This document shows, piece after piece, positions 4,126 to 35,278 of a DNA stretch of 64,000 nucleotides. The position numbers and the translations under genes were made by a program. The DNA is taken from NCBI RefSeq assembly GCF_008630635.1, contig NZ_CP043869.1, positions 2,665,160-2,729,159 of the forward strand, written 5' to 3'. The stretch's first letter is position 1; each line of letters opens with the position of its first letter. Source of the DNA: Neptunomonas concharum (lineage in GTDB: Bacteria > Pseudomonadota > Gammaproteobacteria > Pseudomonadales > Balneatricaceae). The notes beneath the pieces were generated by a model. The model saw nothing but the letters and a program-made list of their open reading frames with translations, made no database searches and had not been told where the DNA came from.

Positions 4126-4135
4126 GGCTGCTGTG

Positions 4136-5032
4136 CTACTGAGTCGGTGAGGCAGTACCCTGCTTCGCCTGTTCAATAAACGCTGTAAGGTAGTCGGTTT
4201 TAAGATCGGTTGAGCGTTGCCCCAAAAAAATTTGCTTGTAGATACCTTCACCCAACCGCAGCGGCTGTATAGCCATGCGCTGTTGATACTCGGATACTAA
4301 CCATCCCGGCAAGGCTGCTACACCACGCCTTGCGGCTACCATCTGCAGCATGATGTCGGTTGTTTCAATGGTTTTATGTTTTTTAGGCTGGCAATTAGCA
4401 GGTGTTAAAAACTGGCTAAAAATATCTAATCGCTCAGGCTCTACGGGATAAGTAATCAAGGTTTCGTTGATTAATTGCTCAGGTGTCACCGAAATGTTCC
4501 TTGCTAAAGGGTGGCTATCAGCGACCACTAGCACCTGCTCATAATCAAACACTGGCTCATAATGTAAACCGCTACGAAATAACGGGTCCGGAGTGACTAA
4601 GATATCAATCTCATGTGCATATAGAGCCCCTATACCTCCAAACTGGAAGCGTTGCTTAACATCCACATCCACCTCAGGCCAAGCACTGAGGTAGGGGCTG
4701 ACCACCTTTAACAACCATTGATAACAAGGGTGGCACTCCATACCGATACGTAATGTACCGCGTCGCCCAGCTGCTATTTCACTCACTACCTCTTCAGCTA
4801 ACTCTAATTGAGGTAATAACCGCTCGGCTAACCGCAAGAGGTACGTCCCAGCGGCAGTAAGACGCAGTTGCCTGCCCTCTTTCTGCCATAAGAGCGTCCC
4901 TAATCGCTGCTCCAGCTTTTTAATGCTATGGCTCAGCGCAGGTTGGGTCAGACATAACTTATCAGCCGCTGCGGTAAGAGAACCGTATTGGTTTACGGCT
5001 CGTAAAATTTCTAAATGGCTTCGCTCTAGCAT
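4136..5032 (-). CDS. metR: LysR-type regulator MetR of methionine synthesis
   Basis: A LysR protein of about 298 residues: N-terminal HTH (LEILRAVNQYGSLTAAADKLCLTQPALSHSIKKLEQRLG) followed by a periplasmic-binding-like effector domain with the MetR-type GMECHPCYQW segment. It is divergent from metE, the classical arrangement in which MetR, with homocysteine as co-inducer, activates metE and represses itself. The frame extends upstream to a GTG at 5050, but the ATG at 5032 aligns better with the usual MetR N-terminus (MLERSHLEIL...), so I place the start there; neither start has a strong ribosome site. Confidence 0.9.
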   Translation of the reverse strand: MLERSHLEILRAVNQYGSLTAAADKLCLTQPALSHSIKKLEQRLGTLLWQKEGRQLRLTAAGTYLLRLAERLLPQLELAEEVVSEIAAGRRGTLRIGMECHPCYQWLLKVVSPYLSAWPEVDVDVKQRFQFGGIGALYAHEIDILVTPDPLFRSGLHYEPVFDYEQVLVVADSHPLARNISVTPEQLINETLITYPVEPERLDIFSQFLTPANCQPKKHKTIETTDIMLQMVAARRGVAALPGWLVSEYQQRMAIQPLRLGEGIYKQIFLGQRSTDLKTDYLTAFIEQAKQGTASPTQ

Positions 5033-5056: not shown

Positions 5057-5069
5057 TGAATAAAATTTA
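5057..5069. promoter_or_regulatory. MetR-box-like site in the metR-metE divergent promoter
   Basis: TGAATAAAATTTA resembles the MetR consensus TGAA-N5-TTCA with one mismatch in the second half. The divergent region also has a perfect short palindrome TGAG-A-CTCA at 5120-5128. These sites lie where a MetR-controlled divergent promoter is expected. No footprint or alignment supports them. Confidence 0.4.
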
Positions 5070-5165
5070 TAGATAGATAAAACAATACCATTATTTTTTA
5101 TTGGTAACGATCACTACTATGAGACTCATCGCTTAATTTGATTGGTATAAAAGGAGCAAGCTCTC

Positions 5166-7466
5166 ATGGCAACAACACATAATCTAGGCTTTCCCCGTAT
5201 TGGTGCACAACGGGAACTGAAATTCGCACAAGAGCGGTATTGGCGCGGGGAGATTGACCAAGCAGAGCTACTCAAGACCGGACATCAGCTACGCTCACTC
5301 AATTGGCAACGGCAATCCACCTTAGATTATTTGCCGGTGGGCGACTTCTCATTCTATGACCAAGTTTTAGATATGAGTTTCACGCTGGGAAACATTCCAT
5401 CGCGTGCATCCAACCTACACACTGATAGTGCAGCAGAGCTAGACACCTACTTCAGAGTAGCCCGTGGACGCTCTGCTCACGACAGTGCTTGCAGTGGCAT
5501 CCATGCAGGTGAGATGACCAAATGGTTTGATACCAATTATCATTACATCGTACCTGAGTTCACCCACGAGACGGTTTTCACCCTTAAACCTGAAAACGTG
5601 CTAACACAGATTGCCGAAGCAAAAACTCATCATAAAAACATCAAACCTGTCATTATTGGGCCAGTCACGTATCTGTGGTTAGGTAAAGAGAAAGATGGTT
5701 CCAATAAGCTAGACCTGCTTGACCAACTACTTACCACCTATCAAGCATTGCTTGCTACATTTGCCGATCAAGGGGTTGAGTGGGTACAAATTGATGAGCC
5801 GATCTTAGTAACAGAACTAGATAAACACTGGAAAAACGCTCTGAGAAAAAGCTACGATCTCTTACAAGAAAGCCCGGTCAAATTACTCCTAGCGACCTAC
5901 TTTGGCGAGCTTAAAGAGAACTTATCCCTAGTAAGCCAACTGCCCGTTGATGGTGTACATCTGGATGCGATCAACGCTCGACACGAAGTCGAACCACTGA
6001 TTGATAGCTTACCTAACCACAGCGTGGTCTCTTTAGGCATTATCAACGGGCGAAATATCTGGAAAACCGATCTGAGTACCACCCTCGACTGGCTGGAGCC
6101 GATTGCTGCAACGTTAGCAGAACGTCTTTGGATAGCGCCTTCATGTTCATTATTACATGTGCCGGTTGACCTGGAAGCAGAACAACAACTCGACCCCGAC
6201 ATTAAAAGCTGGCTTGCCTTCGCTTATCAAAAATTGGATGAACTGGATCTGTTAGCACGCGCACTTAACCTAGGTCGAGCTAAAGTAGCTGATGAGTTAG
6301 AAAGCAACCGTCAGGCTATCGTGAATCGCCAAACATCTTCACGTGTACACAACCCTCAGGTACAACACGCTATCGCCTCGATTTACCCGCACTTAGGCCA
6401 ACGTAAAAGCGACTTTGAGCATCGTGCCGCGCTACAAAGAGCTAAGTTCAATCTGCCACTGTATCCAACCACCACGATAGGCTCCTTCCCACAAACGACG
6501 GAGATTCGTGCCACCCGTCAGCAATTCAAAAAAGGGGGATTAAACGAAGCTGAATACACACAACAAATGCAAGCTGAGATCAAACGCGCTGTGGATGAGC
6601 AGGAAGCATTAGACTTAGACGTACTTGTTCATGGTGAAGCCGAACGGAATGACATGGTGGAATACTTTGGCGAGCAGCTGCAAGGCTATGCATTTAGCCA
6701 ATATGGTTGGGTCCAATCTTATGGCTCTCGTTGCGTCAAACCCCCTATTCTCTTTGGTGATATCAGTCGACCTAAGGCGATGACAGTACATTGGACTCAG
6801 TACGCCCAATCCCTGACAAACAAACCAATGAAAGGGATGCTGACCGGGCCTGTCACTATCCTAAACTGGTCTTTTGTTCGGGATGATCAGCCGCGATCAC
6901 GCACTTGCTACCAATTAGCTTTAGCGATTCGGGAAGAGGTACAAGATTTAGAAAAAGCAGGCGTCAACATCATTCAAATAGATGAAGCCGCCCTACGCGA
7001 AGGACTTCCTCTGCGTAAATCCCAATGGCAAAGCTATCTCGACTGGGCGGTTGAAAGCTTCCGTATCAGCGCTAATGGCGTCAACGATGAAACGCAGATT
7101 CATACCCATATGTGTTATTCGGAGTTTAACGATATTATCGAATCGATCGCCAACATGGACGCCGATGTGATCACTATTGAAACCTCACGGTCTGATATGG
7201 AGCTATTGGATGTATTTGAACACTTCAATTACCCCAACGACATAGGGCCAGGGGTCTATGATATTCACACCCCCAATATCCCATCACAAGCGCAGATGGT
7301 TGCCTTGATGGAAAAAGCAGCCTGTAGAATTCCTGCCGAGCGGCTTTGGGTCAACCCCGACTGTGGCTTAAAAACCCGCCAATGGAAGGAAGTGATACCC
7401 GCTCTTGAAAACATGGTAGCTGCGGCCAAAGCACTGAGGCAGAAAGCGTTAAAAGCCGTAAGCTAA
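5166..7466 (+). CDS. metE: Cobalamin-independent methionine synthase MetE
   Basis: A 766-residue protein, the usual MetE length. It starts with the family signature NLGFPRIG and has the two (beta/alpha)8 halves; the catalytic half holds [22 protein letters not shown] and the zinc ligands in [10 protein letters not shown] (His-x-Cys), a downstream Glu (TIETSRS) and Cys in NPDCGLKTR. It transfers the methyl group of 5-methyltetrahydropteroyl-triglutamate to homocysteine without B12. A clear AAGGAG ribosome site precedes the ATG. Divergent metR supports MetR/homocysteine control. Confidence 0.98.
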
Positions 7467-32239: not shown

Positions 32240-32439
32240 GCCCCAAACCTTACCCATGACAGTAATGGAAACAGTTTTTATTCCCTGCTCTTTTAAATGT
32301 GTAACCAACATTTAAGAGCTATTTAAGTATTGCCGATATGGGAATCTATTTTTGAATCCATAGATTGATAAGCTTTGTAGCAATTTATACACATGTAACG
32401 CATTACTACAAATCAATTCATGTTAGTAGGAGACATGTT

Positions 32440-32511
32440 ATGGCAACTGCAAACGTAAGGCTAGACCAAGAATGGGTTGAAAATAGTAATCGAGCATTAG
32501 CTGTAACTTAG
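32440..32511 (+). pseudogene. Truncated antitoxin-like N-terminus
   Basis: A 23-codon frame MATANVRLDQEWVENSNRA... with a good ribosome site (TAGGAGAC). The beginning resembles the beta-strand of ribbon-helix-helix antitoxins (M-A-T-x-N-V-R-L-D), then stops. It is probably the 5' stub of a lost RHH/RelB-type gene. Identification rests on about ten residues. Confidence 0.4.
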
Positions 32512-32933: not shown

Positions 32934-33263
32934 CTATGTTTTTTCTTTTGAAAGTATGCTGGCTTTAGTGCATCTTTTCTTCGATATTATGATCAACTTA
33001 TCTGTTATCTCAAAATTAAGATTTTCGGACGAAGTAACTGCATGGAGAGCTTCTCTCCATGGCACATTTTTTAAGTAAACTGAAGTTACACCTAACTTAG
33101 GATCAGGAAGAACAAGGCCTTTGCCCGAGAAGTCTGCAATAATTTTTAGAATTTTACTTGTTTGTGTATCAGTAAAGTTAAGGCTAATGTCACTCCCTTT
33201 ATCAGACCACGCCGGTGATGATAGGAGCACAGTTATAAAAACTAAACACTTTAAAACATTCAT
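32934..33263 (-). CDS. Stand-alone secretin/TonB short N-terminal (STN) domain protein
   Basis: About 109 residues: a Sec signal (MNVLKCLVFITVLLSSPAWS) then an STN domain as in PilQ (ISLNFTDTQTSKILKIIADFSGKGLVLPDPKLGVTSVYLKNVPWREALHAVTSSENLNFEITDKLIIIS). In secretins this domain is followed by others and an outer-membrane barrel; here the protein ends after it. No pilus gene is nearby. It may be a fragment of a pilQ-like gene or a small adaptor of its own. The ATG at 33263 is preceded by GAGAGATTG; a TTG at 33269 is the alternative. Confidence 0.65.
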   Translation of the reverse strand: MNVLKCLVFITVLLSSPAWSDKGSDISLNFTDTQTSKILKIIADFSGKGLVLPDPKLGVTSVYLKNVPWREALHAVTSSENLNFEITDKLIIISKKRCTKASILSKEKT

Positions 33264-33315
33264 ATACAATCTCTCGCTTCCTTGTGTCCATTGTAAACAT
33301 AATAACTGAGTATAT

Positions 33316-33349
33316 GGCTTCGACCAATAGGTGGTAACTGTACAGGGCC
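33316..33349. repeat. Direct repeat copy A flanking the NYN gene
   Basis: This 34-base segment begins GGCTTCGACCAATAGGTG and ends ACTGTACAGGGCC. It matches the segment at 34360-34393 with two mismatches and the same orientation. The second copy is the natural 3' flank of the DUF1338 gene, so this one is a duplicate. Confidence 0.9.
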
Positions 33350-33350
33350 G

Positions 33351-33453
33351 CAGCAGAAGGTGAATGCCTGTTTATCCGCCGTGGTTGACCCTGCTCCAGT
33401 AAGGCTTCGGATGTTCCCTTGACTTCGCCACCTACAGTTTCACCGCGCAGCCT
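33351..33453 (-). pseudogene. Duplicated internal fragment of the DUF1338 gene
   Basis: About 100 bases match the DUF1338 gene at 34591-34700, at roughly 85% identity by eye, including the peptide TVGGEVKGT-x-EALLEQG. The fragment lies directly after repeat copy A, although in the intact gene ~200 bases separate these parts, so the copy has also lost a piece. The NYN stop codon falls at its edge. Confidence 0.85.
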
Positions 33454-34219
33454 ACCTTTCCTTGTCAAGCTTTTTTGGCTGATAGGCAATGATATTTACC
33501 GTACCTTTGCCCTTATATTTCTTCATTTCAAAGTCATTACTGAGGCCCTGAATTATTTCAGGTAATTTTGTTGCACCATAGCTTCTGGGGTCAAAATCAG
33601 GGGTTGAACGCTTCACAAACGACCCAGCTGATGCAACATTCGCCCAGCCATCATCATCTTGGTACTGTTCCCAAGCCTTCTTTAGCAATGGCACTAACTC
33701 CGATGCATTAGTCTTTTCTGAAATATTAGCTAGGTTCGCTATAGGCTCAGGCTCTAAGGAGGATGAAACAGCCTCATCACCAAGGTTTTCGGTAAAAATA
33801 AAGTCGTCGCATGCATTCCTAAATGAAATTGGAGTCTTTCTTTCTCCTACACCGAAAACAAAAATTTCTGACTCTCTAAGCCGAGAAGCCAACTTCGTAA
33901 AGTCACTATCACTGGAAACTAGAGCAAAAGCATCAAATTTATTGGAATAGAGCAAGTCCATAGCGTCAATAATCATTGATGCATCAGTTGAATTTTTCCC
34001 TATTGTATAGGCGAATTGCTGAATAGGCTGAATTGCCAACTCATTTAGGGACTGTTTCCAATTCTTGAGGTATTCGCTAGACCAGTCTCCATAGGCTCTT
34101 TTTATTACAATGTGACCATGAGCTGAAATCTCATCTAATATAGCCTTAACTTTTGAATATTGAGCATTGTCTGCATCTATTAGCACAGCCATTTTCTTGT
34201 GATCATCCAAATCTTTCAT
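33452..34219 (-). CDS. NYN (PIN-like) nuclease-domain protein with OST-HTH tail
   Basis: A 255-residue protein. Residues 8-150 are a NYN/LabA domain with the acidic active-site set Asp15/Asp17 (LIDADNAQ), Asp79 and Asp85 (STDASMIIDAMD) and Asp104/Asp106 (VSSDSDF). Residues ~180-250 resemble an OST-HTH/LOTUS RNA-binding domain (LVPLLKKAWEQYQDDDGWANVASAG...FDPRSYGATKLPEIIQGL). This pairing predicts a metal-dependent RNase. The gene is AT-richer than its neighbours and lies between direct repeats derived from the DUF1338 gene, which suggests acquisition. Related two-domain proteins are widespread but little studied. Confidence 0.85.
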   Translation of the reverse strand: MKDLDDHKKMAVLIDADNAQYSKVKAILDEISAHGHIVIKRAYGDWSSEYLKNWKQSLNELAIQPIQQFAYTIGKNSTDASMIIDAMDLLYSNKFDAFALVSSDSDFTKLASRLRESEIFVFGVGERKTPISFRNACDDFIFTENLGDEAVSSSLEPEPIANLANISEKTNASELVPLLKKAWEQYQDDDGWANVASAGSFVKRSTPDFDPRSYGATKLPEIIQGLSNDFEMKKYKGKGTVNIIAYQPKKLDKER

Positions 34220-34359
34220 TCAAGCTCCAATCTTAATACACGTGTCCTAACACCTTAATATACAAACTCCATCTATTCGGGCCACCTATTTCCACCTAAG
34301 ATGTTTCATCCATGACTTTAACCTACTGATTTAACGTACTTGGGGATGGTTTACAAGGC

Positions 34360-34393
34360 GGCTTCGACCAATAGGTGTTCACTGTACAGGGCC
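34360..34393. repeat. Direct repeat copy B, 3' flank of the DUF1338 gene
   Basis: Partner of the 34-base repeat at 33316. It is 8 bases from the terminator of the DUF1338 gene. About 1.04 kb, holding the NYN gene, separates the two copies. Confidence 0.9.
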
Positions 34394-34401
34394 CATATGT
34401 A

Positions 34402-34432
34402 AAAAAGCTGATGCATAACACATCAGCTTTTT
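34402..34432 (-). terminator. Terminator of the DUF1338 gene
   Basis: AAAAAGCTGATG and CATCAGCTTTTT form a perfect 12-base stem with a 7-base loop, ending in a T run on both strands. Confidence 0.88.
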
Positions 34433-34462: not shown

Positions 34463-35260
34463 TTACATCGCGTTGGTCGATTCAAAGATTTTATCAGCGT
34501 TGGCTTCTACAAACCCTTGATACACTACGCCTTGGTTATCGGCATGGCGTAGGGCGAATTCATAGAAGCAGGTAGGGATTTCGTGTGCTTGGCCACAGCC
34601 GAAGGTGAATGTCTGTTTATCCGCCATGGTTGATCCCTGCTCCAGCAAGGCTTCAGGGGTTCCCTTGACTTCGCCACCGACGGTATTTACCGCGTAGCCT
34701 GCGGTTTTTACGCGGTTGAGTACTTCGCGAATATCGCTTGTTGTCGTTAGGTGGTTCACACTAACGGTAAAATGGTTACAACGTACGCCTATCGCTAACA
34801 GCCAAGCGCCATATTCGCTTTCTGCCATGACCGCGTTGTACTCCTCCCAGCTTGGCATGGACCAATGGCGGCCTGACCAGAACACAGAGGGATCGAGTGT
34901 TGCTTCTTGAATTTCGGCTGTATATTTTTTGATGATCTGTTGGCTCGCGTCGCTGAGTTGATCCACCAGCAGTTCGGAGCAAAACACTTTTGGTACGGTT
35001 GGGTCGGGATGAATAAAACTGTGGGCGCGTAGCTTTTTCGCTTTAAAGTCATAGCTGTCTTGGCGCTCATAGCCCATCGCTAAAATGATAGGTTCTAGCA
35101 CATCCAAGCGTAGGGGCGTATCTGCAAAGGTTCGAAACGCCACATGGTCATTAATCACTTCACCATCGGCGGCTTCAAATAGATCGTGTATGACTTGTGC
35201 CTGAGGGGTAATACTGACGTAATCACGCCAAAGAGACTGGAAGAACGCGGCTGGTTGCAT
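34463..35260 (-). CDS. DUF1338 protein, 2-oxoadipate dioxygenase/decarboxylase (HglS)-like
   Basis: About 265 residues, the short form of the family. Metal-binding histidines are visible in NDHVAFRTF (near residue 40) and in NHFTVSVNHL (near 163), and a C-terminal FYEFALRH segment supplies the acidic ligand. Characterised HglS/YdcJ enzymes convert 2-oxoadipate to D-2-hydroxyglutarate in lysine catabolism with Fe(II). Short forms are less studied. GGAGTTTTGATC precedes the ATG; a TTG two codons earlier is possible. A damaged copy of its 3' region lies downstream. Confidence 0.8.
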   Translation of the reverse strand: MQPAAFFQSLWRDYVSITPQAQVIHDLFEAADGEVINDHVAFRTFADTPLRLDVLEPIILAMGYERQDSYDFKAKKLRAHSFIHPDPTVPKVFCSELLVDQLSDASQQIIKKYTAEIQEATLDPSVFWSGRHWSMPSWEEYNAVMAESEYGAWLLAIGVRCNHFTVSVNHLTTTSDIREVLNRVKTAGYAVNTVGGEVKGTPEALLEQGSTMADKQTFTFGCGQAHEIPTCFYEFALRHADNQGVVYQGFVEANADKIFESTNAM

Positions 35261-35278
35261 GATCAAAACTCCGAAAAC

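Follow-up and report, generated by a model that had tools for sequence, protein, structure and literature searches.

An integrase-less integron attI region beside a DUF1338 gene in Neptunomonas concharum and a NYN gene that appears to have entered there as a cassette

In a 64,000-nucleotide stretch of the Neptunomonas concharum chromosome (hereafter the window), a gene encoding a NYN/OST-HTH protein is situated between two short direct repeats, one of which is joined to a fragment of the neighboring DUF1338 gene. The arrangement raises the question of what the repeats are and how the NYN gene came to lie between them. A repeat search of the window paired 34 nucleotides at 33316–33349 with 34360–34393 (94% identity, spacing 1044), and with up to three mismatches allowed, the 34-mer was found twice in the window compared with a mean of 0.00 in 100 shuffles. 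The gene fragment, DUF1338′ (33346–33453, minus strand), aligns to 34591–34700, an internal part of the resident DUF1338 gene (Pfam HGLS; 34463–35266, minus strand; PF07063, 105.5 bits), with 87% identity over 110 nt. Because it differs from the resident gene by 12 mismatches and two 1-nt gaps, we consider it, from its sequence, a broken and decayed piece of that gene. About 197 nt that separate the gene piece from the repeat at the intact locus are absent from the DUF1338′-repeat copy. The stop codon of NYN (33452–33454) overlaps the beginning of the fragment. Alignment confirmed what the preliminary description had observed here, namely a same-orientation pair of 34-base repeats, a piece of DUF1338 and a NYN stop codon that touches it.

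The 34-mer had been described as the 3′ flank of DUF1338. It does lie there, but as the outer portion of an element about 157 bp in length (34251–34407, minus strand), which abuts a terminator-like hairpin behind DUF1338 (34402–34432; inverted repeat I8, with perfect 12-nt arms). The 34-mer alone gave a third, weaker match in the genome; the stretch 34220–34420 gave six matches besides itself, including the short copy at 33316. One of these matches, at locus L064, adjoins a broken integron integrase gene. In one of the seven genus-mates, G006, a homologous region (67% over 213 bp) occupies the spacer immediately before the gene for an intact 335-aa integron integrase (TIGR02249, 483 bits), and cassettes with attC sites follow attI. 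The G006 and L064 loci have one neighbor gene in common, which we take to be carbonic-anhydrase-like. Since a homologue of the element precedes the intact intI of G006 and another adjoins the broken intI at L064, we interpret the window repeat as the outer portion of an integron's attI/Pc region. Adjacency to an integrase was seen for these two regions and not for the window copy, near which tblastn (E up to 1) detected no similarity to intI.

The putative attI in the window has its G^TTA crossover between 34251 and 34250. Across the 21 pairs of copies within the genome, mean identity at TTA was 1.00. The two 14-nt blocks that precede the crossover each averaged 0.78, and the two blocks past it averaged 0.33 and 0.30; L063 and L064 are alike for a few bases beyond the crossover. 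In this alignment of the genome's own copies, the attI regions have the G^TT core with cassettes joined exactly there. The textbook integron crossover core is GTTRRRY, and GTTAGGA in the window differs from it by one base. Inside the region is a Pc-like promoter, TTGTAA-N17-TAAATC (34328–34356, minus strand), and the pattern TTGnnn-N17-TARATY, picked after the alignment had been viewed, recurs with equal spacing in all eight attI copies (seven from this genome plus G006). A predicted Pc reading into the cassettes, as expected of an integron, is therefore present in these copies. An inverted pair, CCACCTATTGG and CCAATAGGTGG, brackets the Pc-like promoter within the attI regions of L063, L066 and L067.

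The preliminary description had also proposed looking for the repeat elsewhere in the genome, and this search found six further full copies of the longer element on the chromosome. The seven copies are those of the window, L063, L064 (the home locus), L065, L066, L067 and L077, six of them without intI. We take the genes flanking the orphan copies to be mqo-like, glycosyltransferase-like and two MKTLLNAT genes, with attI behind each, and a methyltransferase-like gene, with attI beside it. The homology ends at different outer positions before the crossover: at about −204 to −209 in L063, L064 and L066, −169 in L067, −157 in the window, −116 to −134 in L065, and −30 to −35 in L077 under a strict alignment. 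Judged by eye, several outer ends (window 34407; L077 near 3680; L063, L066) coincide with or come close to a run of T that follows the upstream gene, and in the window and L077 this run belongs to a terminator-like hairpin. L063 and L066 have a gene end in common together with attI (649 bp, 92%). Several copies of an exported-looking protein of 93–95 aa beginning MKTLLNA, separated by unrelated genes, are encoded in this genome and in genus-mates (L063:3109–3390, 4127–4408 and 5059–5340; L066:5865–6146; L103; L104); two copies in this genome are joined to attI. A sequence model of attI built from the seven copies and G006 gave eight strong matches in the genus, all its own seeds and confined to two of eight genomes, together with a weak, overlapping match to the opposite strand of the home copy. 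The other six genus-mates gave no match, and apart from G006 no genome carrying another integron integrase of the genus matched the model. With stricter filters, 2 of 116 genomes of the family matched, again the model's seeds, and an exact attI pattern found nothing across genome contigs, a set that perhaps excludes the window's own genome. The missing matches elsewhere may merely reflect fast divergence of attI.

Sites for attC were located with a weight matrix made from 14 hand-picked sites, which replaced two earlier finders with too many chance matches. At a score of 18 the matrix gave 4 matches in three shuffled windows versus 2 in the real one; a strict attC pattern gave 7 matches in the genome versus 2 in a reversed control, which is weak taken alone. 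Sites scoring at least 30 follow the attI copies of L063 (three), L064, L066 and L067 (two each), eight of the nine having been matrix seeds, and the weight-matrix scan found no attC behind the window copy, L065 or L077. Sites independent of the seeds are L067:6575–6669, L068:8959–9084, L076:904–1003, L078:6846–6935, L105 and L106. Behind the attI array of L066 (L066:1143–4656, about 2593–2597 kb) lie three genes with matches to LmuA, LmuC and LmuB, all models of Lamassu, and the gene that comes first after the L063 attI matches the candidate defence model PDC-S31.

The NYN gene (33452–34219, minus strand) encodes both a NYN domain (PF01936, 133.6 bits; cut-off 24.2) and an OST-HTH domain (PF12872, 46.6 bits; cut-off 23.8); PADLOC gave no match for it. 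It is preceded by a putative cassette 5′ end, from the crossover to the start codon (34220–34250, minus strand), in which identity between the attI copies drops to 0.33 and which begins TTAGGAC, as in G041. Downstream, the gene runs into the first arm of a truncated attC that overlaps the end of the ORF (33455–33470, minus strand) and reads GCTTGACAAGGAAAGG, compared with GCTTAACAAGCAAAGG in Alteromonas L105. The DUF1338 fragment comes next, and no complete attC was found near NYN in the window. Matches to NYN were present in 22 of 57 genomes searched. Among the genus-mates, four have matches of 32–33% and three have none. Because none of the seven has a close homologue and the best match in the 57 genomes, at 90%, is in G041, a member of another family of the order, the sequence comparison supports a foreign origin of NYN in this genome.

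In G041, a complete attC is present at the end of the NYN gene. Scanning genome contigs yielded 65 loci with NYN relatives, and the region behind each NYN stop was scored for attC against 325 shuffles (99% point 13.1, maximum 16.3). Two of the 65 exceeded the 99% point: Alteromonas sp. a30 (90% identity, score 37.4) and Marinospirillum celere (88%, 29.9); G041, scored apart from this set, reached 40.4. L107 (84%) has an arm-like start and a score of 7.4, below the 99% point, and no attC-like arm was seen behind NYN in L112 (88% over 219 residues). Most of the distant relatives would, by this score, not be cassettes. A complete attC thus follows NYN in G041, L105 and L106, and the first arm alone in the window. 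Since NYN starts at the crossover of attI and still ends in a first attC arm, we regard it as having arrived as an integron cassette. The proposal that an insertion brought NYN in holds insofar as the gene appears to have been captured as a foreign cassette; its entry would have been at attI, and the repeats are not the footprint of that event. A simple insertion with target duplication was rejected: the repeats are attI, one copy being joined to a piece of the resident gene.

An arrangement common to all relatives, which would have pointed to an old, unrelated repeat, was not found. All seven genus-mates have a DUF1338 homologue, and the only one with this attI, G006, has it at its integron and not at DUF1338. 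The site was compared with relatives without this NYN gene, and in the flanks retrieved a DinB-like gene adjoins the DUF1338 end in five of the seven. In these same five, an ABC-F gene lies 3 to 21 kb from DUF1338; in G004 it is far off on the same contig, and in G003 no ABC-F match was found at the cut-off. In N. concharum, DUF1338 and the ABC-F gene are 3 kb apart, with the attI material in between. No match in this genome was found for a DUF445-like neighbor gene of the relatives, which is uninformative.

The outer copy of the repeat belongs to a shortened attI, attI′ (33300–33349, minus strand). Behind its outer 34 nt (33316–33349) comes a stretch, ATATACTCAGTTATT, with a likeness to the crossover end of attI; of 5000 random 80-nt windows, 0.12% matched or exceeded its score. 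attI′ thus looks like an attI that has lost its middle, Pc included. The next ORF beyond it (32934–33269, minus strand) encodes an STN-like domain (PF07660, 24.7 bits, below the cut-off of 28.4) and is possibly a former cassette; no attC was found behind it. A small-gene remnant at 32424–32510 (MATANVRLDQEW...), which we presume to be antitoxin-like, is 83% identical over 60 nt to L068:13801–13860, beside a second integron of the genome. We regard DUF1338′-attI′ as a distinct, incomplete copy of the junction between DUF1338 and attI, probably made later than the capture of NYN. There is close to an even chance that it arose through a head-to-tail doubling of the 3′ part of DUF1338, attI and NYN, followed by loss of the second NYN. 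The order and orientation of the pieces fit such a tandem duplication, and DUF1338′ is nearer to the resident gene (87%) than to any stretch of a genus-mate (77% at best), but the repeats of the region showed no trace of a second NYN, and the changes in DUF1338′ (3, 2 and 7 by codon position, n = 12) are too few to separate decay in place from import. It is rather unlikely that the integrase inserted a circle carrying DUF1338′-attI′ behind NYN, in the manner of the delta-attI-type cassettes that PMC12901181 describes in class 1 and 2 integrons. The second gene end shared together with attI, that of L063 and L066, speaks for such a circle; the join, however, lies inside the attC past its first arm, where no G^TT crossover was seen by eye.

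Both integron integrase genes found in this genome are broken. The one at L064 is 77–79% identical to that of G006 over the aligned parts, and the one at L068 is split between two frames, so that the intact integrase that marks a functional integron was not found and the arrays are probably now frozen. L068 (1550–1564 kb), with its frame-broken integrase, represents a second integron with at least two attC-like sites; no similarity was found between it and the attI described here.

We consider it quite likely, judging from these sequences, that the window site is an integrase-less ('orphan') integron platform and that NYN is a cassette captured there and later fixed. An attI copy with its predicted Pc sits just past the terminator that follows the resident DUF1338 gene, and an integron integrase, presumably acting in trans, would have inserted the NYN cassette at the G^TTA of this attI, from whose Pc NYN may be transcribed. 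A DUF1338 3′ end with an attI copy would then have landed in the NYN attC, cut it after the first arm and decayed, giving the order DUF1338 - attI - NYN - attC stub - DUF1338′ - deleted attI′, and the cut in attC would have fixed the cassette in place. The order of events and the origin of the outer copy are our reconstruction. Against a cassette platform we counted the incomplete attC near NYN, the lack of attC behind L065 and L077, the GTTAGGA mismatch, the likeness of L063 and L064 past the crossover, and the fact that only 2 of the 65 relatives passed the attC score, with L112 and L107 among those that did not.

How seven copies came to lie in one chromosome is a separate matter. One possibility, though less likely than not, is that attI itself spreads, attI and Pc having been seeded at six new places, sometimes with DNA of the left flank, and several of these having gained cassettes in trans. 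It is possible, if somewhat doubtful, that each orphan attI instead marks a former intI-attI-cassette integron that later lost its intI through a deletion with ragged ends; attI would then never have spread alone, and NYN would still be a cassette. The decaying intI at the home locus and the variable outer ends of the homology agree with lost integrons, but in the stretches retrieved around the other five orphan copies and the window, tblastn (E up to 1) detected no remnant of intI, and up to seven integrons of one type would be needed in one chromosome. That the repeat is a MITE inserted by chance beside intI is very improbable. The inverted pair, noted by eye in several copies, gave rise to this idea, but homology extends past both inverted arms and stops at the attI crossover, and in G006 the region is present at the integrase without the outer arm. 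The MITE was rejected, as the inverted arms are not the ends of homology; a target duplication was sought by eye.

The copies resemble a sedentary chromosomal integron in having attI with Pc, a G^TTA crossover and attC cassettes behind four of the seven, as well as a home locus that lies beside intI in G006 and is decayed in this genome. They differ in that one chromosome has seven attI, six without intI, and in that the window copy holds a single cassette with a cut attC. Cassettes distant from an integrase also characterize CALINs, and integrase-less arrays away from the home locus are reported in Xanthomonas (PMC12444791). In contrast, the arrays of L063, L066 and L067, with at least two attC each scoring at least 30 (several of them seeds), are headed here by a copy of the attI and promoter of the home integron. 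The window, which has no complete attC, lacks the at least two attC without intI that define a CALIN. In a delta-attI-type cassette, which is mobile, a partial attI replaces attC. The window, on sequence alone, matches this layout in part: a gene lies between attI and a second, partial attI, but with an attC stub and a piece of resident gene in between, and attI′ is without its middle. Insertion at genomic attG sites, mentioned in PMC12901181 and PMC12444791, likewise places cassettes outside the home integron, but such a cassette would come without attI, and here attI is found at each place.

The unusual feature here is the dispersal of attI itself. PMC3607928 gives one attI per integron, and attI detection in IntegronFinder 2.0 is, according to PMC9024848, limited to class 1; orphan attI before integrase-less arrays could therefore escape notice. 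No title among the full-text matches listed concerned dispersed chromosomal attI copies, the queries being noisy and covering few subscription journals. If attI spreads, integrase-less arrays would start out as satellite integrons, each equipped with a docking site and a promoter of its own, and would not solely be decayed pieces of older arrays. If orphan attI head arrays, cassettes at a distance from the home integron may be expressed and may have been gained in trans, and the origin of CALINs would be open to testing. The matches to Lamassu (L066) and PDC-S31 (L063) models behind attI copies would give such arrays relevance for phage defence.
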